64,000 nt of DNA from contig PAYZ01000017.1 of NCBI GenBank assembly GCA_002716085.1, forward strand, positions 12,925 to 76,924, read 5' to 3'. The notes below the pieces were generated by a model that was not told where the DNA came from, ran no database searches, and worked only from the letters and a program-made list of their open reading frames with translations. Position numbers and translations under genes: made by a program. This DNA comes from Methanobacteriota archaeon. GTDB taxonomy: Archaea; Thermoplasmatota; Poseidoniia; Poseidoniales; Thalassarchaeaceae. Below, piece after piece: positions 44,585 to 62,627 of the stretch (position 1 is the stretch's first letter; each line of letters opens with the position of its first letter).

Positions 44585-47352
<2,768 letters not shown>

Positions 47353-47442
47353 AATTTCACCAAACCTCCGCAGAGGTCCATCTGACTTGAATAGCTCGTT
47401 TCACCGATTATGGGGTTTAAGAAACAATATCTTTGTATTTCA

Positions 47443-47466
47443 ATTGTATTTCAATTGCAATACAAT
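47443..47466 (+). promoter_or_regulatory. Palindromic operator upstream of the ribbon-helix-helix gene
   Basis: A 24-base near-perfect palindrome with arms ATTGTATT and AATACAAT around a CAATTG centre. It runs into a TATA-like stretch at 47464-47470, so a protein bound here would block or contact the promoter. It lies 44 bases before the GTG start of a ribbon-helix-helix regulator, the expected place for an autoregulatory site. A further CAATTG-containing copy begins just upstream (47435-47450), which may widen the site. Confidence 0.6.
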
Positions 47467-47495
47467 TATATGCCGATCACTACTCTCGCAGACTC

Positions 47496-47503
47496 AGGAG
47501 GGG
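47496..47503 (+). promoter_or_regulatory. Shine-Dalgarno site that sets the regulator start
   Basis: AGGAGGGG ends 6 bases before a GTG at 47510. The frame is open further upstream, but this site makes 47510 the best start and leaves the palindromic operator in non-coding DNA. Confidence 0.6.
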
Positions 47504-47509
47504 CAACAG

Positions 47510-47875
47510 GTGCCAGGCAACAGTCCAATGGTCACACTCAGAATTCCAGAGGATCACTTACTAGAGCTTGAGAGGCTAGTGGGATTCGATGGAATGAGGA
47601 ACAGATCTGACGTAATCAGAGAAGCTATTCGTAGAATGCTTTCCTCGCCACTTCCTGGCAAAGGAGAAAGGATCGAGGTAGATCTTGGCCCTGATCTAAC
47701 AATCAGGCTTAGGGACTATTGCAAGATAGTAGGTGAGACGGCTGATGTTGTTCTCAGACAATCGGCCAGGGAAATGATTCGCAAAGAAATGATCGAGGGA
47801 GCCACAGTGGTTGAGCTCCTAAGTAGGCGCATGGATGAATTGCGCTCCAGGCATGATGAAGATTCAAACATTTGA
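47510..47875 (+). CDS. Ribbon-helix-helix transcription regulator
   Basis: About 121 residues with an N-terminal ribbon-helix-helix DNA-binding domain: the strand MVTLRIPEDHLLELERL leads to the two helices FDGMRNRSDVIREAIRRML. The C-terminal 70 residues (RIEVDLGPDLTIRLRDYCK...) are helical and may form the dimer or ligand domain; they carry no NikR-type metal ligands. The frame is open upstream to 47342, but GTG at 47510 has a strong AGGAGGGG site. The palindrome at 47443-47466 is a likely binding site. It is followed by a small gene 10 bases downstream and by the PEP-synthase-like gene, possible members of its regulon. Confidence 0.8.
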   Translation: MPGNSPMVTLRIPEDHLLELERLVGFDGMRNRSDVIREAIRRMLSSPLPGKGERIEVDLGPDLTIRLRDYCKIVGETADVVLRQSAREMIRKEMIEGATVVELLSRRMDELRSRHDEDSNI

Positions 47876-48168: not shown

Positions 48169-51078
48169 ATGGACGGGAGCCTCGATGAGTGGAGTCGTTT
48201 CGAGAGGTTAACCCCATTCAGAGTAAGAGAGGTGCTATTGATCGCAAGTCAGTTTGATAGGTATTTGTTGGAAGAGTCTGGCCATCTAGCTGAGATTCTT
48301 CAAGAAGAGTATTCCGTTCTGAATCTTTCACAAGCCCCTAGGATAATTCATAGCCCAAATGCAGAAGATGCCATAGATCTTGTTTCTAGTAGAAGATTCG
48401 ATCTGGTAATCACAATGTCCAAGGTGGGGAGGATGGATGTTTACGAACTTGCTCGCCAGCTAAAGGAAATTAGCGGAAATATTCCAGTTGTGATGCTTAG
48501 TCAGAACACCAGAGAGCTTGCGACTCTGAGAACAGGAGAAGGGATTGACAGGATTTTTGTCTGGAGCGGAGATAGCAGAATTCTGCTTTCAATCTGCAAG
48601 CTAATCGAAGATGAGAAGAATGTTGAGAATGACGTGGAAGAAGGAGACGTCCAAGTTATTCTTCTAGTCGAGGATAGCAGGAGGTTCTACTCGGCATATC
48701 TGCCATTATTGTACACTCAGCTGGTTAATCAAACAAGTAGGCTTTCAGGAGAGGCGGGTAATCTTCATGAGAATCTTCTGAGGCTTAGGGCAAGAGCGAA
48801 GATTCTTCTAGCGACCGATATGGATGAGGCAAAAGGTATCATTGACAAGTATTCTAGGAATATCATTGGAGTTTTCACCGATGGAAGATTTCCAAACCAA
48901 GGAGGGGAAAGGGAAACTGCAGGATTGGAACTTGTGAAGTATGCTCAGAGTGGTCACAGGTATTTGCCAATACTCCTGCAGTCGAAGAATATTGAGCTTA
49001 AAGAAGACGCTGAATCGATAGGAGTTCCATTTCTTCACAAGGAAGACCCGAAGCTGTACCAGAGAATCGAGGAGTTCATGCAGGAAGAGATGAGTTTTGG
49101 GGATTTCATTTTCAGAACACCTAATGGTGATGAAATTGGTAGGGCATCGAATCTTGAGGATCTTGCAGAAATGATTGAAGGGGCCCCGGTGGAGTCAATA
49201 GAGTTCCATGCAAAGAGGAATGAGTTCTCCCATTGGCTCAGAGGTAGGACTGAATTCTCACTTGCTGGTTTACTGAGGCCAATGACATTGGATGATTTCG
49301 AAGACTCTGAGGGAGTAAGGAATCACATTTCTGAAACAATAAAGTCCCATATTGACAAGATTAGGAAGAGTACAATTCGTGACCATGATTCAAAGTCTGA
49401 GAATGCAGGTTTCCAAAGAATAGGGAGAGGTAGCCTTGGTGGAAAGGGAAGGGGTTTGGCATTCTTCTACACCAGGATGGATCAACTTGGGCTTGGGGAT
49501 TCATATCCTGAAATCGAATTCGTAGTTCCAAATTCTGTAGTCATTGCAACTGGAGTATTTGGCGATTTCATTCGGAGGAATAATCTATCTAAATTCGCCT
49601 ACGATGAATTCAGTGACCAAGAAATCAATGAGGCATTTCTAGCTGGAGATTTCGGAGATGAAGTAGATGAAATAAAGGACATGTTAGGAAATACTCCTTG
49701 GCCAGTGGCCGTTCGCTCCTCTAGTCTACTTGAAGATTCGAGTCATCAACCCTTCGCAGGAGTCTATGCCACATACATGCTGGCAAACGATCACCCTGAT
49801 CTGGAGGTCCGTCTGGATCGTCTTTTACAGGCGATCAAACTAGTTTATGCTTCTATATTCCACAAGAATGCAAAGAGCTACATCACTGCCACTGCGAACA
49901 AAATTGAGGATGAGAGGATGGCAGTTGTAATCCAGGAAGTTATCGGCAGGGAAACTGCAGGAAGGTTTTACCCAGACATCTCTGGAGCGGCTAGGAGCAG
50001 AAACCACTACCCAGTTGATCCTCTGAGGATGGAGGATGGGTTAGCTGCAGTTTGCATAGGACTAGGAAGGCAGGTCTCATCGGGTGGTAAGTGCCTTAGA
50101 TTCAGCCCCGGTCAGCCGAAGAGAATTCACCAGTTCTATAGCACAAATTCAATCATCGAGACTTCCCAAAGCAGATTTTTCGCAATTCCGATATGTGAAG
50201 AAAGTGGCGATGTGCAACACTCGGAAGAGGGCAATCTCTTGCACTTGGGTTTGGACGATGCAGAGCAAGACAATAGGTTGGCCCTAGTAGGCTCAACATA
50301 TGTCTCATCTGACGATAGGATTGTTGATTCAATTAGGGCCGAAGGTGGCTCTAGGTTGGTTACCTTCGCTCCAGTACTAAAACACAACAAGTTCCCTCTG
50401 GCTCAGATTCTGGACCATGTACTGAAGACCTGCGAGCAGTTTCTAGCCACACCAGTTGAAATGGAGTTTGCAATCAACGTAGACAGGGGGGGCGGGAATA
50501 GGAAGTTTGCCATTCTGCAAGTAAGGCAACTAATGGATGAGTCGGTTGACATAGACATTGACCTAGATGAAGTCGACAGTGAAAAGGCGGTCTGCATAAG
50601 TAGCAAGTCCCTTGGAAATGGAGTCATAGATGGAATTAGGGACGTAGTATACGTAAATCCAGAACATATGGATAGAATGAGGACTGCTGATCTTGTGCCT
50701 CAAATCGAGGAGATCGATGCAGACCTAAGGAAGCGGGGCAGGCCATACTTGCTAATAGGGCCTGGAAGGTGGGGGACATCTGATCCATCATTGGGAATAC
50801 CTGTTCAGTGGAACCAGATTATGGGTGCAAAGGCGATTGTTGAGGCGCAGATGACAGACATTCACGTCGACCCGTCCCAAGGAACTCACTTCTTCCAGAA
50901 CATTGTAACTTTCAACATAGGCTACCTAACAATCGTAGAAGGGGACTTTGTTGACTGGGGATGGCTCGATTCACATAACTGCAAGTTTGATGAACAGGGT
51001 TTGAAGCACATCTCACTAGAAGAGCCACTGAAGGTGGTTCTCGACAGCCGGGACTCAGAGGCAATCGTAGTTAGGTAA
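48169..51078 (+). CDS. PEP/pyruvate-binding ATP-grasp protein with receiver-like N-terminal domains
   Basis: A 969-residue protein. Residues 1-150 and about 160-310 look like receiver-like folds (VLLIASQFDRYLL, IPVVMLSQNTREL, VQVILLVEDSRRFY, RYLPILLQSKNIEL). From about 425 the PPDK/PEP-synthase ATP-binding domain begins: GRGSLGGKGRGLAFF, PWPVAVRSSSLLEDSSHQPFAG and the closing ILQVRQL near 785. A further domain has LIGPGRWGTSDPSLGIPVQW and DPSQGTHFFQNI. There is no phosphohistidine swivelling domain or PEP-binding barrel, so it is not a full PEP synthase. Similar proteins exist in Bacteroidetes, from memory. The start ATG has no strong SD. Confidence 0.75.
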   Translation: MDGSLDEWSRFERLTPFRVREVLLIASQFDRYLLEESGHLAEILQEEYSVLNLSQAPRIIHSPNAEDAIDLVSSRRFDLVITMSKVGRMDVYELARQLKEISGNIPVVMLSQNTRELATLRTGEGIDRIFVWSGDSRILLSICKLIEDEKNVENDVEEGDVQVILLVEDSRRFYSAYLPLLYTQLVNQTSRLSGEAGNLHENLLRLRARAKILLATDMDEAKGIIDKYSRNIIGVFTDGRFPNQGGERETAGLELVKYAQSGHRYLPILLQSKNIELKEDAESIGVPFLHKEDPKLYQRIEEFMQEEMSFGDFIFRTPNGDEIGRASNLEDLAEMIEGAPVESIEFHAKRNEFSHWLRGRTEFSLAGLLRPMTLDDFEDSEGVRNHISETIKSHIDKIRKSTIRDHDSKSENAGFQRIGRGSLGGKGRGLAFFYTRMDQLGLGDSYPEIEFVVPNSVVIATGVFGDFIRRNNLSKFAYDEFSDQEINEAFLAGDFGDEVDEIKDMLGNTPWPVAVRSSSLLEDSSHQPFAGVYATYMLANDHPDLEVRLDRLLQAIKLVYASIFHKNAKSYITATANKIEDERMAVVIQEVIGRETAGRFYPDISGAARSRNHYPVDPLRMEDGLAAVCIGLGRQVSSGGKCLRFSPGQPKRIHQFYSTNSIIETSQSRFFAIPICEESGDVQHSEEGNLLHLGLDDAEQDNRLALVGSTYVSSDDRIVDSIRAEGGSRLVTFAPVLKHNKFPLAQILDHVLKTCEQFLATPVEMEFAINVDRGGGNRKFAILQVRQLMDESVDIDIDLDEVDSEKAVCISSKSLGNGVIDGIRDVVYVNPEHMDRMRTADLVPQIEEIDADLRKRGRPYLLIGPGRWGTSDPSLGIPVQWNQIMGAKAIVEAQMTDIHVDPSQGTHFFQNIVTFNIGYLTIVEGDFVDWGWLDSHNCKFDEQGLKHISLEEPLKVVLDSRDSEAIVVR

Positions 51079-51116: not shown

Positions 51117-53123
51117 GTGTCGAGCGAGGATCGTTTCGAAGCGGGCTTGTTCTTCGCCCATGATTCTCCTCGGGAGTCGCAAATTGGGATGATCTCAGAC
51201 GGGATCGAGGCATTAAATGAGGGTGGTTTTCTACTAGCAGCAGCACCTACTGGTATTGGGAAGACTGCTGCGGCACTGGCTTCTGCACTGAGTGTAGCAA
51301 ATCTTGATGCTACTAAACATGGAAAGACGAAAATCATGTTCTTGACAGGGAGGCAATCGCAGCATCGAATAGTGGTCGAGACTATTCGTGAGATTAACAG
51401 AAGGCTACCTGCAGGATTTTCCAGAGTCAAATTGGTTGATATTATTGGAAGGGAGGGGATGTGCAAAGTAATCGACAGGTCCACAGGAAAATGTAACTGC
51501 GAAGAAGGAGTATCGGAGTCGGAAAGAAGATTCCTCAGATCTGAACTAGAAGATTTCATACACTCAGATCCCAGACACGTGGATCAAATAATTGAGCGAG
51601 CCGAGAAGACAAAAGTTTGCGCATGGGCGACTGCGAGAGAATCCTCCAAATCTGTAAATCTGATAGTTTGCGACTACAATCATGTGTTCGTAGATGGAGT
51701 AAGAGAAGCATCATTGCCAGTAATGGGTATCGAGTTGGAGAATTCCATCCTAATAGTGGATGAGGCGCATAATCTTCCTGACCGAATTAGGAGCGGTCTT
51801 GAAAGGAGGATTACAGGACAAGTATTCCAAAGGGCACTATCGGATGCTCAAGAGTACAAGGAAAAGCTAGAGAAAACAGAAACTGACCTAGATATTCCAG
51901 AATCGAACGCTCATAGGGAAGCAAAATTATTAGAGAAGCAAATCAAGGCACTAAGGGACGACTCTGGAATAAGGAAATGGTTCGAAGAGAAGAAGTCAGA
52001 GAATGAAAGGACGAAACACGATGATCTCAGGATTTCGACCCAAGACTTCCTAGATATTATTGCTGGAGCCATTGAGGGAGTAATTGATGAGGAATCTGAT
52101 GATGGAATGGAAAGAATCAGAATGATGATTTCTAGACTCTTGAAAGTCGAGGTTGAAGAAGACGAGGATCTCGATGATGAGGAGCAAAATGAATGCACAA
52201 GATTGGCGGAGATTCTAGAGATATGTATCAGATACAGGAGTAGTTCTTCTCTAGCATTGGTCTTTGATGAGGTATTAGACCAACCGAGAATAACAAGCCA
52301 CCTTCTGGATCCTAGTGTTGTTGGTAGTCCTATTTTCGAACACTGCTCAGGATCGATATTGATGTCAGGGACCCTATTTCCCCCCGAGATGTACTCTGAA
52401 ATTCTAGGCATACCTAGTAATCGTTCGATTTGCAAGGAGTATTCGTCGGGATTTCCTTTGGATAATAGACCTGTTCTAATAGCTAGTGATGTGACCACCA
52501 AATTTACTGAAAGAGAATCTAGTATTCCAGTCATTAACGAGCATATCAGATCCGTAATAGACAATACGAAGGGAAATGTGGCTGTCTTTGCTCCAAGCTA
52601 TGCAATGCTTGATCTGATTCATGGAGACTTCGCCTCGGTTGGCTGGAGTAGAAAGAAAATCATCAAAGAAGAGCAGAGGATGAGTAAAGCCAGGGTCGAA
52701 GAATTGGTCTCGACGCTTTACGAGCAAAGGGATATGGGTGGAGCCGTTCTTTTCGGGGTTCTCAGTGGTAAATTATCAGAGGGTGTTGATTACTCTGGCA
52801 ATATCCTGAATTCTCTAGTATGTGTTGGCCTTCCTTTGCCTCCTCCAAGCTCAAGACAGGAGGCTTTGATTGACTATTATACGAAGAAGTTTGACCGTGG
52901 ACGTGCATGGAAGTATGCTAGCCTGCAACCTGCAGTGAACAGTGTACTTCAGGCACTTGGTAGACCAATAAGGAAAAAGGAAGATAGGGCTATTGTTGTT
53001 TTACTTGAAAACAGAATGTTGGAAGGGAGAGTGAGGAATTGTATGCCAATTATGCATAAGATTCAGTCCTCAAACCCTCAAAGGACCGGAGAGAGAGTAA
53101 AGTCGTTCTTTGAGATGTCATGA
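51117..53123 (+). CDS. XPD/Rad3-like iron-sulfur DNA helicase
   Basis: Superfamily 2 DNA helicase of 668 residues. Walker A is AAPTGIGKTAAALASAL, Walker B is LIVDEAHNLPD, motif III-like LMSGTL and motif VI QALGRPIRKKEDRAIVV are present. Four cysteines in GREGMCKVIDRSTGKCNCE and VCAWATARES can ligate the 4Fe-4S cluster of XPD. A long charged helical insert (about 240-330) fills the arch domain and makes the protein longer than the archaeal XPD of about 550 residues. The start is GTG at 51117. It probably acts in DNA repair. A 163-residue gene begins 3 bases after its stop. Confidence 0.88.
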   Translation: MSSEDRFEAGLFFAHDSPRESQIGMISDGIEALNEGGFLLAAAPTGIGKTAAALASALSVANLDATKHGKTKIMFLTGRQSQHRIVVETIREINRRLPAGFSRVKLVDIIGREGMCKVIDRSTGKCNCEEGVSESERRFLRSELEDFIHSDPRHVDQIIERAEKTKVCAWATARESSKSVNLIVCDYNHVFVDGVREASLPVMGIELENSILIVDEAHNLPDRIRSGLERRITGQVFQRALSDAQEYKEKLEKTETDLDIPESNAHREAKLLEKQIKALRDDSGIRKWFEEKKSENERTKHDDLRISTQDFLDIIAGAIEGVIDEESDDGMERIRMMISRLLKVEVEEDEDLDDEEQNECTRLAEILEICIRYRSSSSLALVFDEVLDQPRITSHLLDPSVVGSPIFEHCSGSILMSGTLFPPEMYSEILGIPSNRSICKEYSSGFPLDNRPVLIASDVTTKFTERESSIPVINEHIRSVIDNTKGNVAVFAPSYAMLDLIHGDFASVGWSRKKIIKEEQRMSKARVEELVSTLYEQRDMGGAVLFGVLSGKLSEGVDYSGNILNSLVCVGLPLPPPSSRQEALIDYYTKKFDRGRAWKYASLQPAVNSVLQALGRPIRKKEDRAIVVLLENRMLEGRVRNCMPIMHKIQSSNPQRTGERVKSFFEMS

Positions 53124-53618: not shown

Positions 53619-56600
53619 TCACTCTTCGGGCTCTAATTGTAGATGCCCTCTAGTTGGAATCTCCTCTATAGCCTCAATCTCCTGAGTAACAGAAGATAGT
53701 GCGAGTTGGGCATTGTCCCTGTGTGAGTCTCCAAGTAAGTGGCTGGAGTATCTGGCTTCCTCGAAAATCCTGTCTAGGGACACTAGGGATGCCTCACTTA
53801 TAGGTAGGGCCTTCCTGATTGCCGATTCGAACTCCCTAACTGTCTCGAAGTTTCTTCTGAGGAATCCCCTGCGCGTCAAAACCGCGCATAGATTCTGGTA
53901 GCAAAGGAAGATTGCCTTCCTGTACTCGTCGCCCGACGCAAGCATCTCAGCTGTCTGATTGAAAACACTAGCTAGCTCTTTAATTGCTGACTTCCTCCTC
54001 ACATTTAGGAGCATTGATCCGAGGGCTAAAGCTACTGCTGCAGCCAGTATAGCTCCAATGGCAATGGTAGTTACTCCCAAGGAGTCAGAATTCTGCTGTT
54101 CATACTCAATCTGTACCCCCGAGGCGGGAAGTAGTGCCAAGCTAGCCGGATCCAAGAAATCGGAGTCGGAAGAGATCATGACGCTGAGATCGCCCCACGC
54201 GGAACGGTCCGAAAGTGGGGGCATTGGTGAAATTGACTTGAACTCGTAATTGAAAACGCCTTCTTCATCGGTCAGCTTCGACATGGAGAAGTGATTGATG
54301 CTGCCATTGAGAAGGATTGCAGTTAGCGAGAGTCCTTCCAGTGGTGCACCCGTGTCTCTTGCAGTTGCGTTTACTGTCCCCCTGATGACCCTCTGGCCAT
54401 TTGAAAGCTCGATACCTGAAAGCAGGAAATCGACCTCAACCATAACCATGACTTCAATATCCCTCGACCCACCATTCAGGAATCTGCTCTGATCTGATTC
54501 TACCTCCAATGTCAAGGAGTTCTTACCGGGATCCAAGAATTCCTGTGCCTTTGCGATAATCTGGAAATTCATTGTCGCCTGATTGTCCCACGGCCCTGAT
54601 GTTAATGGGAGGTCAGATTCGCCCCATAGTAGGGAAATTGTGAGGTTGGAAATTATCGCGGAGTCTCCACCAACTTCGCGAACAAGGCCCTGGACCATAA
54701 TTGAGCTAGAAGGAGAGGAATCTCCCCTGATTATGGTATTTGAAGAGGGTTGAATCTCGATGGTTACATCGGAAAGTACGAAAACTTCGAAAGTTGATTT
54801 GGAAGGAAGGTAAAGGAACTCCCCGCCGTAGGAGAAAGTGAAGTTGTGAGAACCTCTTGCCAATGAGTAATCCACATACTCTGAGAAGGTGAAAATACCT
54901 CCTACTTCAGTAATGACAGTTCCCACTTGGTCGCCATCCATCAAGATGGAAATCTCCCTTCCATCCATTCCCTGCTCGAAGCCGGTATCGGACTCGAAGA
55001 GTCGTCCTGAGAGGTTCCATTGTCCGCCTCTTGTGGAATACAATTCGTCCACTTGGAAGGAAATTGAAGTGTGGTAAGAAACTGTGAATGATGATTCTGT
55101 GGTTCCAATCCTGTAGAAGCCCTGCTCTGGAGCGATTGCTGAAACTGAGTGATTTCCGATTTCCAGAGATTCGGGGATTGTCCACTGTAAAGACCAAGTT
55201 CCATTTTCCATTGTGTTTGTAATCCCAACTAGAGACCCGTCTACGAATATCTCCACGGTATGACTCCCCAACCAACCATCTTCCAAGTTATCCTTCGCTG
55301 TTCCAGAAATTACCACTTGGTCCCCGACAGCGGATGGAGGAACTTCGTCTATTGATACAAATACGGGGGAGAAGACGGTGAACACAATTGACGAGTTGGA
55401 AGGTAGAATGAACTCCTCTCCGTCGAAATTTACTCCCACTAGCAATGGTCCTAGCTCCATATCTGGGGCTATCGGTATGAATCCGGAGAATGTGCCGTTA
55501 CTGCTCACTGATAGGTTGGTTAGAACCTGCCCGTTTACCGTGATGGATATCTCCCTGTCTGGGAGCGATCGTCCGACCCCATCAGTAAGAGCTCCTTCAA
55601 CTAAAGCTACTCCATTCCTGTCAACTTCTCCTGGTGGGGAAGATATTACCACCTGTGAGGTCTGAGTGACGTTGAATCCGATGGATGAGGAGGCGGATAG
55701 GTAGTACTCCGGATTTAGCGAGTCACCCTGGCCCATTGGGTCGACCCAGGAGAATCCGCCCAAGAAGTCGAATTCGGCTTGGTGTGGACCGAAGTCCATG
55801 TCCGAAGGGATCTGGTATGTAATCTCCCATAGTCCTGTTGTGGAGTTGGAAATTGTTGCGAATAATGGGCCCATGTCTACACCATTAACGGACAAGTGGA
55901 TCACGCCTCCCGAGACAATGCCATCATCCTTCAGTGGCTTGCCCCTCTCATCTAGGAGTGAACCGGTAAATGTGACGGTTTCACCCGCGAGTGAAGGAGA
56001 GGAGGTTTGATTGAGGGAAATCACAGTCGGTGCAAGGACGATTACCCTAGTCCAGGACTCGTCCCCCTCTATCCCTGTTGAGCCGTTTATTCCAGAGAAT
56101 GTTGCTGTGATCTGCATTGGTCCTGGATCCCTGTCCCCCCTTGCCAGTATAGAGGCCGAAGCAAGGCCATCGGGATCTGTAAGCCCGCCCCAAACTGTAC
56201 TGTTGTCGACTGTCACAACAATTGTTGCAGATGAGATTGGGGATCCTGAATTGTCTATCAAGGAGATGTTGAGGTCGATGGTTGATCCCCGAACTGTCCT
56301 GCTTTCAGGGTCCAAGTCGGTCGGGCTTAGAATTGAAAGCAACGAGTAACCCCTGCTTTCAAACGTCGCAAATGCTGAAGCGGAAGAGAAGTATGTTACC
56401 TGGGGGTTGAATTCCACGTCGACACCATGTGGACCCCGCGGGAAAGATAGGTCGAGTCTGATTTCTGCAGACCAAGTCCCATTTTCATAGAATGAGGTCT
56501 GTGAAACAATGAACGAGTCTGATTGCCCATCGATAGTGAAAATCAGAGTTGGGTTTAGGGGGTTGCCGGACCTGTCGGTCAATGAAGATCCGTTGCTCGA

Positions 56601-59600
56601 AGTAAGTGTCCCTGATATGTTGAAAAACTCGCCCGGTAGGGGGTTTGCAGAAATTGTATCAATGGCCATATTGGTTGTTGAGCGGACTGTAATGGTGTTG
56701 AGAATATGCATTGCGGGATGAAGGTCCGAAGAGCCGTTGAACCATAGGGTGACATTTACCATTCCGAGTGGGTGATCATGCGGAATCTCGAATTCAAAGG
56801 ATGCAGTTCCATCTAATGAAGAGGATTGCGGGATTAGCCATGTATCGTGGAATCTTGCTTGCACCGAGAAGCCGGGAAGTTGCTGATTGTTGTTACTGAA
56901 TTCCACTAGTCTTGTAGTTAGGGTGACGTTATCGCCTCTGTTCACGATTGTGTTGACAAATGGGGTAGAGTCTATGAATTGAGAAACCCCCATCACAAGA
57001 ATCGGTGAGATCCCTGTTCCAGTGAGATAGAATGGTGTGGAGCCGTTGATCACACTAACAACTACTGTCCTGTCCCCCCTCAAGACACCATTCCCCAGGG
57101 TATCTGTGGGCACTGATATGTTGAAGGAGCCATTACTGGAAGTGGTGAAGTTTTCGATCAGGATCTCTTCTGGTTCATCTAGGAAGAAGACAGTGAGTCC
57201 AACTGGTCCCTGAACTGTCCTGTTTGAATCTGAAGAGTCGGTTACATTGCCTTGTACTGAGAAGTACTGGAGAGCAGTAACTTGGGAAGGTATTGAAGTG
57301 ATTTCTACTGAGCTCTGGACCTGTACAGTTAGATTGACGAAGCTTTCGTTAGCAAGCCACCTTCCTGCATTTGCATCCGAAAGAGAATCGGTAATGTCGT
57401 CTGGAGCGTGTATCCTGACTTCGTAGAATCCTGGAGCCACTGATGATGGTATTACTGGATCGAATGAAGCGATTCCATCTTGATTTGTGGAAGCGCTCTG
57501 TAGCAGCTGCTGTTGGGGTCCGCCCCAGTCAAAATACAATTCTAGGTTAGCGTCGGAAATTTGTCTGGAGTTGTCCTCCACATCCGTGACTGTTGACTGG
57601 ACGATTAGTTGGTCCCCTGCTACGACTATAGCCGAGGTTGGCTCCGACTCCAAGACGAACTCTGTCTGAACTCCAATCTTGATTATGGTGTGATCTGCTG
57701 GATTGTAGTAACTCCCCCCTACTGGTGGATTAGCAAGGAAATTAAGGGAGATTTCTAGCTCATAAACTCCAGAGGGGATTCCAGAAGGTATTTCGAATGA
57801 GAGGTTGTAAATTCCGGTCGTGTTGTTCGTCCATCCTGAAGCCAGAGTGTACGTAGTAGGCGCAGAGGGCAATCCCCCAGGAGTGTCGGGGAGGGACGAT
57901 GGTACCTTCAGTTTCAGGATTACAGAAGTGTTGTTTCCTGAAACTTGACTCTGGAGGGCCAAGTCTTCCGCGAACCCTGAGACTGAATTTGTGAATCCCC
58001 GTACACTCCATTCATTGGCCAGAGTAGCAGTTGCATTTGCCAAGCCCCTAACCCTAACTTGCTCAGAAGTAGAATTGGGTCTGAGCCATGTAGATCCACC
58101 ATAGGAAAGTTCCCACGAATAGTCGCCAGGAACTAGGGCGGAATCAGTAGTGAAGCTTACCTCGAGCCTTCCCGAATTTGTTTCTGACTGGTTCCAAACC
58201 TCTATTCCATCGAAGTTGAGCGAGTAGTTGCCATCGAAGGTTGCGAAGGATGTCCCGGTGTGGTCGCTAAGGAAGACGTCGACTTCGTAAGGGCGCCCCC
58301 TAATTGCTGGATCTAGAGAGTAGTTGAAAACGACATAGCTTCTGATTCCAAAGGTGTCAATAAATTGCTCTTGATCGTCGGCATTTAGGTCGTCGGAGTC
58401 GAATTTCAGTCTCACGTCAATCGGACCTGCCACTATTGGAACCTGTGATGATTCGAGGGACCAGGAGATGGAAAAGTTACCCGGTGAAGGAGTCCATGAA
58501 GAGGAGTTAAGGTACCAACTGGAGATCTCGATGAAGGGGCCAGAAGCCTCAGCGCGCCTCATTTCAAGGATCAGTGTCCCATTTAGAGAAGTGGGCGATG
58601 GGCCCCTACTGAGTACCGTTCCATTCAGGAAGATATTGCTGTCAATCTCAAGTATTGAGTTGTTGAGGCCCTGTGACTCCAGAGTTACTGTGAGGTTTGG
58701 TGACAGAGTGATGTTAAACTCCAAGGAAAGAGTCTCTGGCCTTGCATGGTATTGGGGTGGGGTCTGATTGTTGAGATCATTGAAATGCCATCCTAGGAAT
58801 GAAATTGTGGCATTCATCGGGCCCAATGGTTCCAACTCGTCTATAGGCACTATGAACTCAAAGTAGCCCCCTCCTGAGACATTAGAAACTATAGAGACAA
58901 ATCCGTCTACGGATGATGAGTAGTTCAGCAGGACCTGGAGATCATCCACCAAAGAGGGATCCAAATTAGGGGAGCTGGCCCAAGACAATTCTCCGGTAAG
59001 TGTTGAGTTGACCCCTATGCCAAGCATGGGTGAGGAAAGTGGTAGGGGCTCGATTATTGAAATTGACACGTTGTCTGTTACGTTCAACTGCCAAGGCATT
59101 GTGATTCCTTGGTCCCCCACATATCCAGTCTCTGAAGTAAGAATTACCAATGACCCGAACCCGGGTTGGATTACTTCGCTAGGGAGGCCGGAGAGGTTGA
59201 ACGAGCCATCGACCTCTGTGACTGCGCTAGCTACTAGGTGCTCTGGAAGAGCGGCGCTTCCGGGTACTTGCGCAGAGAGACCTGGATCTACAAGGTACAT
59301 GGAAATCGGTATGTTTCCTGCAGCAGTCTGATTTTCCGAGAATTCCAATGTGCCATCAACCCAAATCTGTTCAGAAGAAGAAGTGTCTCTTTCAACCTGG
59401 GTCGGCCCCCAGGATGAGACTTCTACAGAAACTAGTGACATCTCTGGACATGCTTGGAATGGAATCCAGCCCAAATCAAGCTCGCCCTGGTTCTGATTAG
59501 TCTGGAGGTGTACCTCGGCCCACCTTGAGAAGTCCTTTCCGAATACCTCGATTCCCTCGCCATTCCATAACCCGCCCGAAAATCCTGTGACTTTCCTAGT

Positions 59601-62600
59601 GGGTATTCCTGCAATCCTAAGCATTGTAACGAAGACAGTGGTGAATTCGTCACAACTGCCCTCATGTGATGAGTTTAGAATCCAATGGCTGATGTCGCTA
59701 TCATTTCCCAATCCGTCTGCCCTACCAGACCCCTCGTGATTCCTCAGGAAGGTAATGGTGTCATTTCCGTTGATCAGGAAGTCCTGTATTGCAGTAACTT
59801 TATCCCAAGCAGAGATAGCTCCAGAATCGTTCAGAATTTCTTGTGTAAGGATCTTTACGTAATCTCCGTTATCGTGGAAATGCTGTGGCAAATCCTTGCC
59901 ATATTCAGAACCTGCGAAAGCAGTGGTATTCTCCCTAATTTCCGTTGAGAAGATTACTTCGGGGGCATTTACGTACAATTCGCCCACTATAGCGCTATCA
60001 ACCAGTACGTCTCTAGTGAAATTGGAAAAATTTAGTCCGGCAGAGATATCTGACCAAGTGGTGTAGTTGACTGTATTGTATGGCTGAATTAGCTCCTGAC
60101 CTGGGAAAATATAACCGGCTTCTTCAAAAATAATCTCCCAAGATAGGGGGGATGAGTGATTCCAGAAAGAAGGATCAGCAACTCCCTGTTCAGTAGAGAA
60201 GTCCGACAACATAGGAGTATTCCCAATTAAACTAGAGTTCACCCCCCAAGATACCCCTGTGTAGTAGTCATATGTGTGCCACCTCCAGTAGTGGGTTATT
60301 CCGGGGTCCATTCCCTGCGATGTGTTTGATGCGGTGAAAATAAGTGAGTTTTCGAGTATGTCGTCATCCGGATCAAAAGGATCGCCCGGAGAACCCAGAC
60401 AATCCAAATCCCAGAATTCGGGAGTGCATTCTTCTCCGTCTGGGACTCCTCCGCCATCAGAATCGGGGTCCCTCCAGTCGGTTCCCAACAACTCCTCGAT
60501 TGAATCTGGAATACCGTCTCCATCGGTGTCTAGTGGATTGATATCATCATCTGGATTGTCTTGGGGGTTTGTTCCATCTATGTACTCCTGGCCATCATCC
60601 ACACCCCCATTGTCTGTATCAGCGACATTCCAGAGTGTGAACCATACATCGGTGGTGAAGTTTCCTCCAATGCCGATTTCCCCCAAGCCGAAAATAATGT
60701 CGCATCCAGTTGTATTCTCGTAGTAGTTATTCAGACCGTCTTCATCCGTGTCCAAGATATTGTGGCATGGTTCCCTAGGATCCGTAAGGTTGAGGATTTC
60801 TGAGAGGTCGTCCACCCCGTCTCCGTCCGTGTCATATAGGGTTGGATCCGAGAGGTAGCCCCAAGCTGCGGTTAGCTCCTCCCAGTCTGCTAGGCCATCA
60901 CCATCTGAATCCTCGTAATCATCATCACACCATGGGTCGTTCACAGCTCCAACTGTTGCATTCCAACACCAAGAGCCATTATTGAAAACAATAAAATCGG
61001 AGTTCTCTGGACGTGCGGGGTCTACATCCCTAAGAGAGTCAGATTGCAAGAATGAGTATCGAAATGGCGTTCTAGAGCCATTTTCTGAGACATAGTAGCC
61101 ATGTGGGGGGTTCCCCCTCCAGTCCTCTGGATTTGGATTAATTCCTTCGGAAGAGTTCAGGGACAGAACTTGGGAAATTGGGTCCCAGTCTATGATCGAA
61201 AATTGGAGCTCAAATATCGAAGTGCAAGGGTCCGTGTTTCCAGGGAATCCCTCATTCCCATCATTGATTCCTCCTCCATCGGAGTCAGAAACGTTCCAAA
61301 GAGTGCAAGAGTTGTTTTCCTGATAGTTCTGAATTCCATCCGAGTCGAAATCTCCCTCATCGTTAATCCTTGTTGGATCGGTCTCCCCAGGGTCTATGAT
61401 ACCATTCCCATTAAGATCCTCTTCGCCATCGTCTAGGTGGTCTCCATCGGTATTGTTGCTTCTGGGATCTGAGCCTTGTGCGGGATCCCCATATGTTCCA
61501 TTGTACTCTATGCCATCTTCGATCCCATCCGAGTCCGTATCAACTGAAGTGGGGTCGGTAAGAATTACCAAGCTTTCTAGAGAATCATTCAGGCCATCCC
61601 CATCCGTGTCATTGTTGAAAGGATCGGTTTGAGTAATGCCATCAACTTCGGCAGTGAAAATCTCGCATCCACCGGGACCTAGGCCCAATATTGGGTTGCA
61701 TGGGGATTCTGTGGCTGTCATATTTATTGGGCCAGTTCTAAAGTACGGGGTAGGGGGGAATGTTGATCCGTTCCTTGTGCCCCAGGTTGGGTTGACGTAC
61801 TCGTAGATATTGGCAAGTCCATCAGAGTCGGGGTCCCCATATGTTCCATCCTGATTGGAATTTGAAGTTGGGTCCAAACCATTTGCAGCTTCCCAACCAT
61901 CTGGCATCCCATCGCCATCGGTGTCCCATCCGTTCGGATCTTCGTCCTCCATCCCATCACCGTCATCGTCATTTGAATTGCAATCGGCGTCTCCGTCGAA
62001 GTCATCATCGTTCAAGTCTACCATTCCGTCGTGATCATTGTCGAAAGTGTCAGCACAAATATTGCCGCGGGGGTCTTCATCGAACCCATCTGAACCAGAA
62101 CCCTGTAGAACTTGCATTGCACTCTCCTCGTCCCAATCGGAAACTGGGACCGTGCCATTCCACCAGACTCCATTTTCAAGAACGTTAGTTGTGGCTGGAT
62201 CGTCCCAAGCTACAGGGATCCCATAGCGATACTCGTTTAGGTTAGAAAGTCCGTCCATGTCCGGATCTCCGGAAGAGCCGTTTTCACCTGATGACGAAAG
62301 AGGGTCTAGTCCGTACTGCCATTCCCAACCATCTGGCAGACCGTCGTTGTCAGAATCCCAGTCTTGGGGTTGGGTATTGATGAGGAACTCTATACCATAA
62401 GGTAGACCATCTGCATCTTGATCGGTGGTAGCGGATACTTCGAAAGCTCCAATCTGAATGCCCGCAGAACTGGACAAAACTAAGATCATTGAGAACAAGG
62501 CTGCCGACCTTTTCTTGGGATGATATGAGGTTGGCTCGCAAATGCCGATTTCTAATCTCATTGCTACATTCCCAATCCCATGGTGATATCCACGGGTCTT

Positions 62601-62627
62601 AAGAAGAATGGAGCGAAGTTCGGACAT
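53619..62627 (-). CDS. Giant surface protein with Ca-binding repeats, transglutaminase-like domain and DUF4129-like tail
   Basis: A 3002-residue protein. A signal/anchor segment (SAALFSMILVLSSSAGIQIG, residues about 38-58) precedes thrombospondin type 3-like repeats to about residue 770. A transglutaminase-like domain has Cys near 990 in HEGSCDEFTTVFVTMLRIAG, His in RWAEVHLQ near 1037 and Asp in LDLGWIPF near 1050. Some 1700 residues of Ig-like or carboxypeptidase-regulatory-like modules follow (about 1100-2780). A transmembrane helix near 2850 leads to a helical cytoplasmic tail like DUF4129, which often sits with transglutaminase-like domains. It starts 8 bases after the upstream gene; an ATG at 62561 is an alternative start. 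Confidence 0.85.
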   Translation of the reverse strand: MSELRSILLKTRGYHHGIGNVAMRLEIGICEPTSYHPKKRSAALFSMILVLSSSAGIQIGAFEVSATTDQDADGLPYGIEFLINTQPQDWDSDNDGLPDGWEWQYGLDPLSSSGENGSSGDPDMDGLSNLNEYRYGIPVAWDDPATTNVLENGVWWNGTVPVSDWDEESAMQVLQGSGSDGFDEDPRGNICADTFDNDHDGMVDLNDDDFDGDADCNSNDDDGDGMEDEDPNGWDTDGDGMPDGWEAANGLDPTSNSNQDGTYGDPDSDGLANIYEYVNPTWGTRNGSTFPPTPYFRTGPINMTATESPCNPILGLGPGGCEIFTAEVDGITQTDPFNNDTDGDGLNDSLESLVILTDPTSVDTDSDGIEDGIEYNGTYGDPAQGSDPRSNNTDGDHLDDGEEDLNGNGIIDPGETDPTRINDEGDFDSDGIQNYQENNSCTLWNVSDSDGGGINDGNEGFPGNTDPCTSIFELQFSIIDWDPISQVLSLNSSEGINPNPEDWRGNPPHGYYVSENGSRTPFRYSFLQSDSLRDVDPARPENSDFIVFNNGSWCWNATVGAVNDPWCDDDYEDSDGDGLADWEELTAAWGYLSDPTLYDTDGDGVDDLSEILNLTDPREPCHNILDTDEDGLNNYYENTTGCDIIFGLGEIGIGGNFTTDVWFTLWNVADTDNGGVDDGQEYIDGTNPQDNPDDDINPLDTDGDGIPDSIEELLGTDWRDPDSDGGGVPDGEECTPEFWDLDCLGSPGDPFDPDDDILENSLIFTASNTSQGMDPGITHYWRWHTYDYYTGVSWGVNSSLIGNTPMLSDFSTEQGVADPSFWNHSSPLSWEIIFEEAGYIFPGQELIQPYNTVNYTTWSDISAGLNFSNFTRDVLVDSAIVGELYVNAPEVIFSTEIRENTTAFAGSEYGKDLPQHFHDNGDYVKILTQEILNDSGAISAWDKVTAIQDFLINGNDTITFLRNHEGSGRADGLGNDSDISHWILNSSHEGSCDEFTTVFVTMLRIAGIPTRKVTGFSGGLWNGEGIEVFGKDFSRWAEVHLQTNQNQGELDLGWIPFQACPEMSLVSVEVSSWGPTQVERDTSSSEQIWVDGTLEFSENQTAAGNIPISMYLVDPGLSAQVPGSAALPEHLVASAVTEVDGSFNLSGLPSEVIQPGFGSLVILTSETGYVGDQGITMPWQLNVTDNVSISIIEPLPLSSPMLGIGVNSTLTGELSWASSPNLDPSLVDDLQVLLNYSSSVDGFVSIVSNVSGGGYFEFIVPIDELEPLGPMNATISFLGWHFNDLNNQTPPQYHARPETLSLEFNITLSPNLTVTLESQGLNNSILEIDSNIFLNGTVLSRGPSPTSLNGTLILEMRRAEASGPFIEISSWYLNSSSWTPSPGNFSISWSLESSQVPIVAGPIDVRLKFDSDDLNADDQEQFIDTFGIRSYVVFNYSLDPAIRGRPYEVDVFLSDHTGTSFATFDGNYSLNFDGIEVWNQSETNSGRLEVSFTTDSALVPGDYSWELSYGGSTWLRPNSTSEQVRVRGLANATATLANEWSVRGFTNSVSGFAEDLALQSQVSGNNTSVILKLKVPSSLPDTPGGLPSAPTTYTLASGWTNNTTGIYNLSFEIPSGIPSGVYELEISLNFLANPPVGGSYYNPADHTIIKIGVQTEFVLESEPTSAIVVAGDQLIVQSTVTDVEDNSRQISDANLELYFDWGGPQQQLLQSASTNQDGIASFDPVIPSSVAPGFYEVRIHAPDDITDSLSDANAGRWLANESFVNLTVQVQSSVEITSIPSQVTALQYFSVQGNVTDSSDSNRTVQGPVGLTVFFLDEPEEILIENFTTSSNGSFNISVPTDTLGNGVLRGDRTVVVSVINGSTPFYLTGTGISPILVMGVSQFIDSTPFVNTIVNRGDNVTLTTRLVEFSNNNQQLPGFSVQARFHDTWLIPQSSSLDGTASFEFEIPHDHPLGMVNVTLWFNGSSDLHPAMHILNTITVRSTTNMAIDTISANPLPGEFFNISGTLTSSNGSSLTDRSGNPLNPTLIFTIDGQSDSFIVSQTSFYENGTWSAEIRLDLSFPRGPHGVDVEFNPQVTYFSSASAFATFESRGYSLLSILSPTDLDPESRTVRGSTIDLNISLIDNSGSPISSATIVVTVDNSTVWGGLTDPDGLASASILARGDRDPGPMQITATFSGINGSTGIEGDESWTRVIVLAPTVISLNQTSSPSLAGETVTFTGSLLDERGKPLKDDGIVSGGVIHLSVNGVDMGPLFATISNSTTGLWEITYQIPSDMDFGPHQAEFDFLGGFSWVDPMGQGDSLNPEYYLSASSSIGFNVTQTSQVVISSPPGEVDRNGVALVEGALTDGVGRSLPDREISITVNGQVLTNLSVSSNGTFSGFIPIAPDMELGPLLVGVNFDGEEFILPSNSSIVFTVFSPVFVSIDEVPPSAVGDQVVISGTAKDNLEDGWLGSHTVEIFVDGSLVGITNTMENGTWSLQWTIPESLEIGNHSVSAIAPEQGFYRIGTTESSFTVSYHTSISFQVDELYSTRGGQWNLSGRLFESDTGFEQGMDGREISILMDGDQVGTVITEVGGIFTFSEYVDYSLARGSHNFTFSYGGEFLYLPSKSTFEVFVLSDVTIEIQPSSNTIIRGDSSPSSSIMVQGLVREVGGDSAIISNLTISLLWGESDLPLTSGPWDNQATMNFQIIAKAQEFLDPGKNSLTLEVESDQSRFLNGGSRDIEVMVMVEVDFLLSGIELSNGQRVIRGTVNATARDTGAPLEGLSLTAILLNGSINHFSMSKLTDEEGVFNYEFKSISPMPPLSDRSAWGDLSVMISSDSDFLDPASLALLPASGVQIEYEQQNSDSLGVTTIAIGAILAAAVALALGSMLLNVRRKSAIKELASVFNQTAEMLASGDEYRKAIFLCYQNLCAVLTRRGFLRRNFETVREFESAIRKALPISEASLVSLDRIFEEARYSSHLLGDSHRDNAQLALSSVTQEIEAIEEIPTRGHLQLEPEE
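60360..62450 (-). repeat. Thrombospondin type 3-like repeats in the transglutaminase-like protein
   Basis: Coding units on the minus strand give D-x-D-G-D-G-x-x-D-G-x-E loops, from DQDADGLPYG near the N-terminus to DPDSDGGGVPDGEE before the transglutaminase-like domain. The motif matches the array in the 1905-residue protein. Confidence 0.65.

Follow-up and report, generated by a model that had tools for sequence, protein, structure and literature searches.

A PPDK-type ATP-grasp protein with two receiver-like folds, commonly encoded beside glutamate dehydrogenase, as a possible regulatory kinase of archaea and bacteria

The window analyzed here is a stretch of 64,000 nucleotides from a Thalassarchaeaceae archaeon (contig PAYZ01000017.1). 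The open reading frame at 48169-51078 on its plus strand is intact, lies exactly where the original prediction had placed it, and encodes a protein that we call P0001; P denotes P0001 together with its homologues. The gene, its parts, and its surroundings are as follows.

44585..45940, minus strand: NADP-specific glutamate dehydrogenase (GDH), 2.2 kb upstream of the P0001 gene and on the opposite strand
47342..47875, plus strand: ribbon-helix-helix (RHH) protein with weak similarity to the CdrS/aCcr1 cell-cycle regulators, directly upstream in this genus
48169..51078, plus strand: P0001, 969 aa, comprising a pseudo-receiver, a receiver, a helical linker, a PPDK-type ATP-grasp, and a C-terminal domain
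48220..48642, plus strand: REC1, aa 18-158 (Pfam Response_reg, residue table, model strands 21-131)
48646..49092, plus strand: REC2, aa 160-308, with the complete pocket E168/D169, D238, S272, K291
48880..48882, plus strand: codon of D238, the predicted phospho-acceptor Asp of REC2, present in 73/73 sequences
49105..49404, plus strand: helical linker, aa 313-412, with a weak DUF5752-like match
49432..50538, plus strand: PPDK_N ATP-grasp, aa 422-790, with conserved K426, R516, T535, E764/E766, and Q784
50566..51075, plus strand: C-terminal domain, aa 800-969, with the motifs IGPGRWGxxD and PSQG[TS]HFFxN
50887..50889, plus strand: codon of H907, the one His that is strictly invariant across the P family (73/73)
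51117..53123, plus strand: Rad3/XPD-DinG-like helicase, directly downstream and co-oriented in several close relatives
53619..62627, minus strand: ORF of 3002 aa resembling a repeat-rich surface protein

Two genes, encoding an HD-domain protein and the RHH protein, separate GDH from the P0001 gene, and the order GDH, HD-domain, RHH, P recurs in the close relatives L039, L046, and L047.

The original prediction described P0001 as the ATP-binding part of PEP synthase without the phosphohistidine domain or the PEP barrel, and the profile searches that it had proposed bear this out. In Pfam, PPDK_N was matched at 3.7e-33 (aa 422-790), whereas neither PEP-utilizers (PF00391) nor the PEP/pyruvate-binding barrel gave a match at E<=1, the C-terminal domain being the end of the protein. 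Response_reg was matched partially (1.3e-5, aa 50-116) and DUF5752 within the linker (E 0.00068, aa 347-402), both below their cut-offs. Among 45 bacterial relatives scanned at E<=0.01, PPDK_N was found in all 45, Response_reg in 44, DUF5752 in 31, and PEP-utilizers in none. The best NCBIfam match of P0001, prodigiosin ligase PigC (1.5e-16), fell far below the cut-off of that family, and no second PPDK_N protein was found in the P0001 genome (82% complete). An AlphaFold2 model built on a 73-sequence alignment (mean pLDDT 86.5) consists of two consecutive (beta-alpha)5 receiver-like units followed by a helical region, then the ATP-grasp, and, as a distinct unit, the C-terminal domain; Foldseek matches this model best to rifampin phosphotransferase and to PleD with its tandem receivers. 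Compared with a copy from the same genus, P0001 diverges by 0.185/0.119/0.619 at codon positions 1/2/3, and is thus under purifying selection. This excess of third-position (62%) over second-position (12%) divergence, together with full-length relatives at 38-83% identity, shows that the gene is not a chance ORF.

Two receiver-like folds had been predicted ahead of the ATP-grasp, and the model contains both, with strands at residues 21, 58, 79, 107, and 128 in REC1 and at 163, 211, 232, 268, and 288 in REC2; only the second, however, is a canonical receiver. The residues diagnostic of response regulators (acidic pair, acceptor Asp, Thr/Ser, and Lys) are complete in REC2 but not in REC1, which has the fold with neither an acidic acceptor where beta3 ends (T82/M83 and neighbors) nor a Lys after beta5. 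Across the 73 sequences, the REC2 pocket is nearly invariant: E168, D238, S/T272, and K291 occur in 73/73 and D169 in 66/73 (N in 7). The question of whether the receiver aspartates are kept, raised with the original prediction, is thus answered positively for D238 of REC2 and negatively for REC1.

All nucleotide-handling residues of the ATP-grasp (K426, R516, E522/D523, T535, E764, E766, Q784) are retained in P0001, with K426 and R516 present in 73/73 sequences and T535 in 72/73. K426 was matched to the lysine of the PEP-synthase GGK motif and corresponds to K22 of the rifampin phosphotransferase RPH-Lm, and R516 and T535 align with its R117 and T136; K22, R117, and T136 are needed for rifampin phosphotransferase activity (PMC4844700).

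The C-terminal domain, modelled alone at pLDDT 91.7, could be assigned to no known family or PDB fold: Foldseek against the PDB returned nothing at E<=0.001, and a viral fold library gave nothing significant. The comparison with swivel profiles gave no significant match either. The domain is specific to the P family, and its description as distinct in the original prediction stands. On paper, its secondary-structure order and the position of H907 at a helix start resemble the swivel phosphohistidine domain. A cryptic swivel domain was rejected on comparison by hhalign with 20-26 swivel sequences (probability <1%) and for want of support from Foldseek against the PDB. P0001 does not contain the swivel signature T/SxxGGxxxH (PMC12167813). 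With hhalign, Foldseek, and signature all negative, it is conservation that marks H907 as a candidate phospho-acceptor. The minimal relatives L040 (7455-9383) and L041 (3526-5265) retain just the ATP-grasp and the C-terminal domain, which therefore form the core of the family. Each of these two genes overlaps a same-strand gene with a metallo-beta-lactamase fold.

A species-genome collection contains, outside this genome, at least 589 stretches that encode relatives of P. Full-length versions are found in at least a dozen phyla, where their annotation is just "PEP/pyruvate-binding domain-containing protein"; the best 80 of these matches come from Acidobacteria, Bacteroidota, Ignavibacteria/Chlorobi, Gemmatimonadota, Eisenbacteria, Krumholzibacteria, Planctomycetota, Desulfobacterota, Bdellovibrionota, KSB1, Calditrichota, Elusimicrobia, Thermoleophilia, and others. 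Gut Bacteroidales also carry P, and the Parabacteroides distasonis protein WP_041525632.1 covers 99% of P0001 at 35.7% identity with the same full-length architecture. Among archaea, P is present in about a quarter of the sampled Thermoplasmatota genomes and is patchy even in the genus of the window (10 of 25 sampled genomes, its own included). In the tree, the copies from Poseidoniia cluster with those of bacteria (support 0.97 and 0.889) rather than with those of other Thermoplasmatota, which suggests that gene transfer lies behind them. One same-genus copy (G208:C27:4514-7217) is split into separate reading frames, through decay or assembly error.

A second type of P paralogue, of about 1050 aa, occurs in tandem with the GDH-linked copy in five loci (L031:3945-7076, L033:6462-9644, L034:6960-10133, L035:1153-4416, L043:14226-17420); the one scanned, from L034, has an extra C-terminal nucleotidyltransferase domain. 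Each is followed, at a near-zero gap or with slight overlap, by an opposite-strand gene of a single cluster, a calcineurin-like phosphoesterase where scanned, and the two are possibly a write/erase pair.

Gene neighborhoods were compared in loci drawn from the best 80 of the at least 589 matches, which are not a random sample and come mostly from metagenome-assembled genomes, with ORFs and neighbor clusters delineated mechanically. GDH, on which the original prediction was silent, as it was on the breadth of the family, is by far the commonest neighbor of P: of 77 loci from bacteria and archaea, 42 have it within 700 bp and 47 have it anywhere in the locus, as against 11 for the next cluster. 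Among the 42 loci flanked by 3 kb or more on each side, GDH is present in 28 and not within reach in the other 14. Chance alone, roughly reckoned for genomes that have between one and three GDH genes, would yield a figure on the order of one per cent. GDH directly precedes 37 of 108 P copies on the same strand (median gap 84 bp), and alternating arrays (L052, L057, L082, L087, L089) reach GDH-P-GDH-P-GDH in several genomes. Members of the neighbor cluster carry GDH motifs, and those scanned are GDH by both Pfam and NCBIfam (NADP-specific, over the cut-off); independently, PGAP annotates gdhA as the divergent neighbor of the P gene in P. distasonis. All 47 P-bearing Thermoplasmatota genomes have GDH (p 0.007, uncorrected for kinship), and the P and GDH trees are correlated (Mantel r 0.34, p 0.0015, likewise uncorrected). 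Some loci without GDH have 2-oxoacid:ferredoxin oxidoreductase genes upstream of P (L088, L111, L114), and others have glutamate-synthase-like genes nearby; both kinds of neighbor fit the glutamate/2-oxoglutarate node.

The search for a partner phosphohistidine protein that had been proposed along with the original prediction came out negative: PEP-utilizers was found neither in the P0001 genome (82% complete) nor in 7 of 10 P-bearing relatives, themselves incomplete, and the same search was positive in 14 of 14 control genomes. A separate swivel partner was thus rejected for most of these archaea and is unlikely for P; because none was found in most of these genomes, the phosphoryl acceptor is more likely to be in P itself (the invariant H907) or on its target. 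Nor was a histidine kinase found in the 11 P-bearing genomes (this one and ten relatives, 82-97% complete). All HATPase_c matches in these genomes are GyrB, TopoVI-B, or MutL, leaving no classical histidine kinase for REC2. In relatives, two HATPase genes located a few kb away from P were considered as histidine kinases and proved to be MutL. Contig C5 of G000 (L130, L132) carries AT-rich, bacterial-looking pilus-type ORFs along with two of the receiver-domain matches of that genome, and is possibly contamination.

The PEP-making parts are absent from P, while the ATP-handling residues, the REC2 pocket, and the C-terminal domain are kept beside a GDH gene. On these grounds we tentatively favor, at somewhat less than even confidence, a PPDK-derived regulatory kinase at the glutamate/2-oxoglutarate node, most probably acting on the adjacent GDH. 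Under this model, the REC1-REC2 unit would sense a signal, with REC2 able to accept a phosphoryl group on D238, and would gate the ATP-grasp, which, like its counterparts in PEP synthase, PPDK, and rifampin phosphotransferase, would use ATP and drive phosphorylation of a His, most likely H907 of P itself; ATP-loaded or phosphorylated P would then bind or modify GDH and so set the flux between 2-oxoglutarate and glutamate. Phosphorylation by P, H907 as acceptor, the order of steps, and GDH as target are each what we infer. The linkage by itself shows neither contact nor the direction of control between P and GDH, and in this window GDH stands outside the P0001 operon, on the other strand and two genes away, which counts against the model. 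So do the 14 well-flanked loci in which no GDH is within reach, the negative searches for a known phosphohistidine domain, and the patchy occurrence of the gene within the genus. The earlier suggestion that the protein signals or phosphorylates another target, rather than making PEP, agrees with the anatomy, in which HMMs detect neither swivel domain nor barrel, and with the gene neighborhood, although the activity itself is inferred. Conservation of the receiver pocket in archaea showing no histidine kinase also makes a one-protein phosphorelay thinkable, in which phosphoryl groups would pass from the ATP-grasp to H907 and on to D238, and the receiver state would switch GDH; we consider this variant, in which the C-terminal domain would represent a new or cryptic phosphohistidine domain, improbable.

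Several other readings compete with that of a regulatory kinase. P might be a metabolic enzyme: a small substrate, such as a 2-oxoacid or an amino acid, would bind to the C-terminal domain and be activated by the ATP-grasp, the receivers would have only a regulatory part, and GDH would supply or use the substrate. PPDK_N enzymes do include small-molecule kinases and ligases, such as rifampin phosphotransferase and PigC, the best NCBIfam match; GPGRWGxxD and PSQG[TS]HFFxN are conserved in the manner of an active site, and linkage to GDH and 2-oxoacid oxidoreductases would also suit a pathway. No product-forming domain is recognizable in P, however, and tandem receivers and GDH-P-GDH-P arrays with differing GDH types are better suited to one regulator per GDH, so that we regard this reading as somewhat unlikely. 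Alternatively, the ATP-grasp might read ATP as an energy signal and P control GDH as a structural partner, by binding and with no phosphoryl transfer. This would accord with the failure to recognize a phosphohistidine domain in P itself and, for most of these archaea, elsewhere in the genome, but the full set of nucleotide-handling residues has been kept, which argues for catalysis and makes pure sensing distinctly unlikely.

That P is half of a split dikinase, passing its phosphoryl group to a separate swivel protein as in HpeHI or phenylphosphate synthase, is very improbable: HpeI is indeed an ATP-grasp without a swivel (PMC12167813), but the pattern of PEP-utilizers absences against positive controls speaks against such a partner, and the conserved partner gene of P is GDH. 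As for a decayed PEP synthase without function, the missing PEP-synthase parts and the G208 gene in separate reading frames could be read that way; strong purifying selection and a spread over at least a dozen phyla refute it, and we give it next to no credence.

GDH stands at the junction of carbon and nitrogen metabolism, and because its gene usually adjoins those of P0001 relatives, P is probably an unstudied switch at this crossroads. If the regulatory-kinase model is true, a receiver-controlled, PPDK-derived, kinase-like protein tied to GDH would constitute an undescribed layer of control across many phyla, human gut Bacteroidales included, in which a PPDK-type ATP-grasp would work with an acceptor domain that is not of the classical type, and archaea with no detectable histidine kinase would use a receiver. 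Control of GDH by P is testable in culturable hosts. No description of the P architecture or of its link to GDH was found in a literature search covering few subscription papers; a PPDK_N mention in a neighborhood paper (PMC10364804) concerns SelO and is unrelated to P.

Known systems resemble P in part. PEP synthase and PPDK share its PPDK_N domain, but P lacks PEP-utilizers and the PEP barrel and has gained receivers. PleD likewise has two receiver folds in a row; its output is a diguanylate cyclase, whereas that of P0001 is an ATP-grasp, and in P0001 the intact receiver is the second. The "PEP/pyruvate-binding" family next to gdhA in P. distasonis is uncharacterized and matches P0001 in its full-length collinear architecture and GDH neighbor; the archaeal copy lies on the opposite strand from GDH, with two intervening genes. 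Kinase-controlled regulation of GDH and 2-oxoglutarate dehydrogenase is known from GarA/OdhI-PknG, an FHA protein with a Ser/Thr kinase that has no sequence relation to P, so that the analogy is one of purpose only. Rifampin phosphotransferase and the split kinases HpeHI and PpsAB have an ATP-grasp with equivalent Lys/Arg/Thr (PMC4844700, PMC12167813), but also a domain for a small-molecule substrate and a swivel domain, the latter in the same chain or in a separate protein. VadK of Mycobacterium tuberculosis, a truncated relative of PPDK, autophosphorylates on a His and binds enzymes of the methylcitrate cycle (PMC13400623). It differs from P in its size (about 50 kDa), in having no receivers, in its methylcitrate-cycle targets, and in keeping a classical phosphohistidine domain (His422), of a kind that Pfam, Foldseek, and hhalign did not find in P0001. 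Both have a PPDK-derived ATP-binding part without the PEP-making part and a proposed role in controlling metabolic enzymes, and P thus appears comparable in logic to VadK, which shows such a change of role elsewhere.
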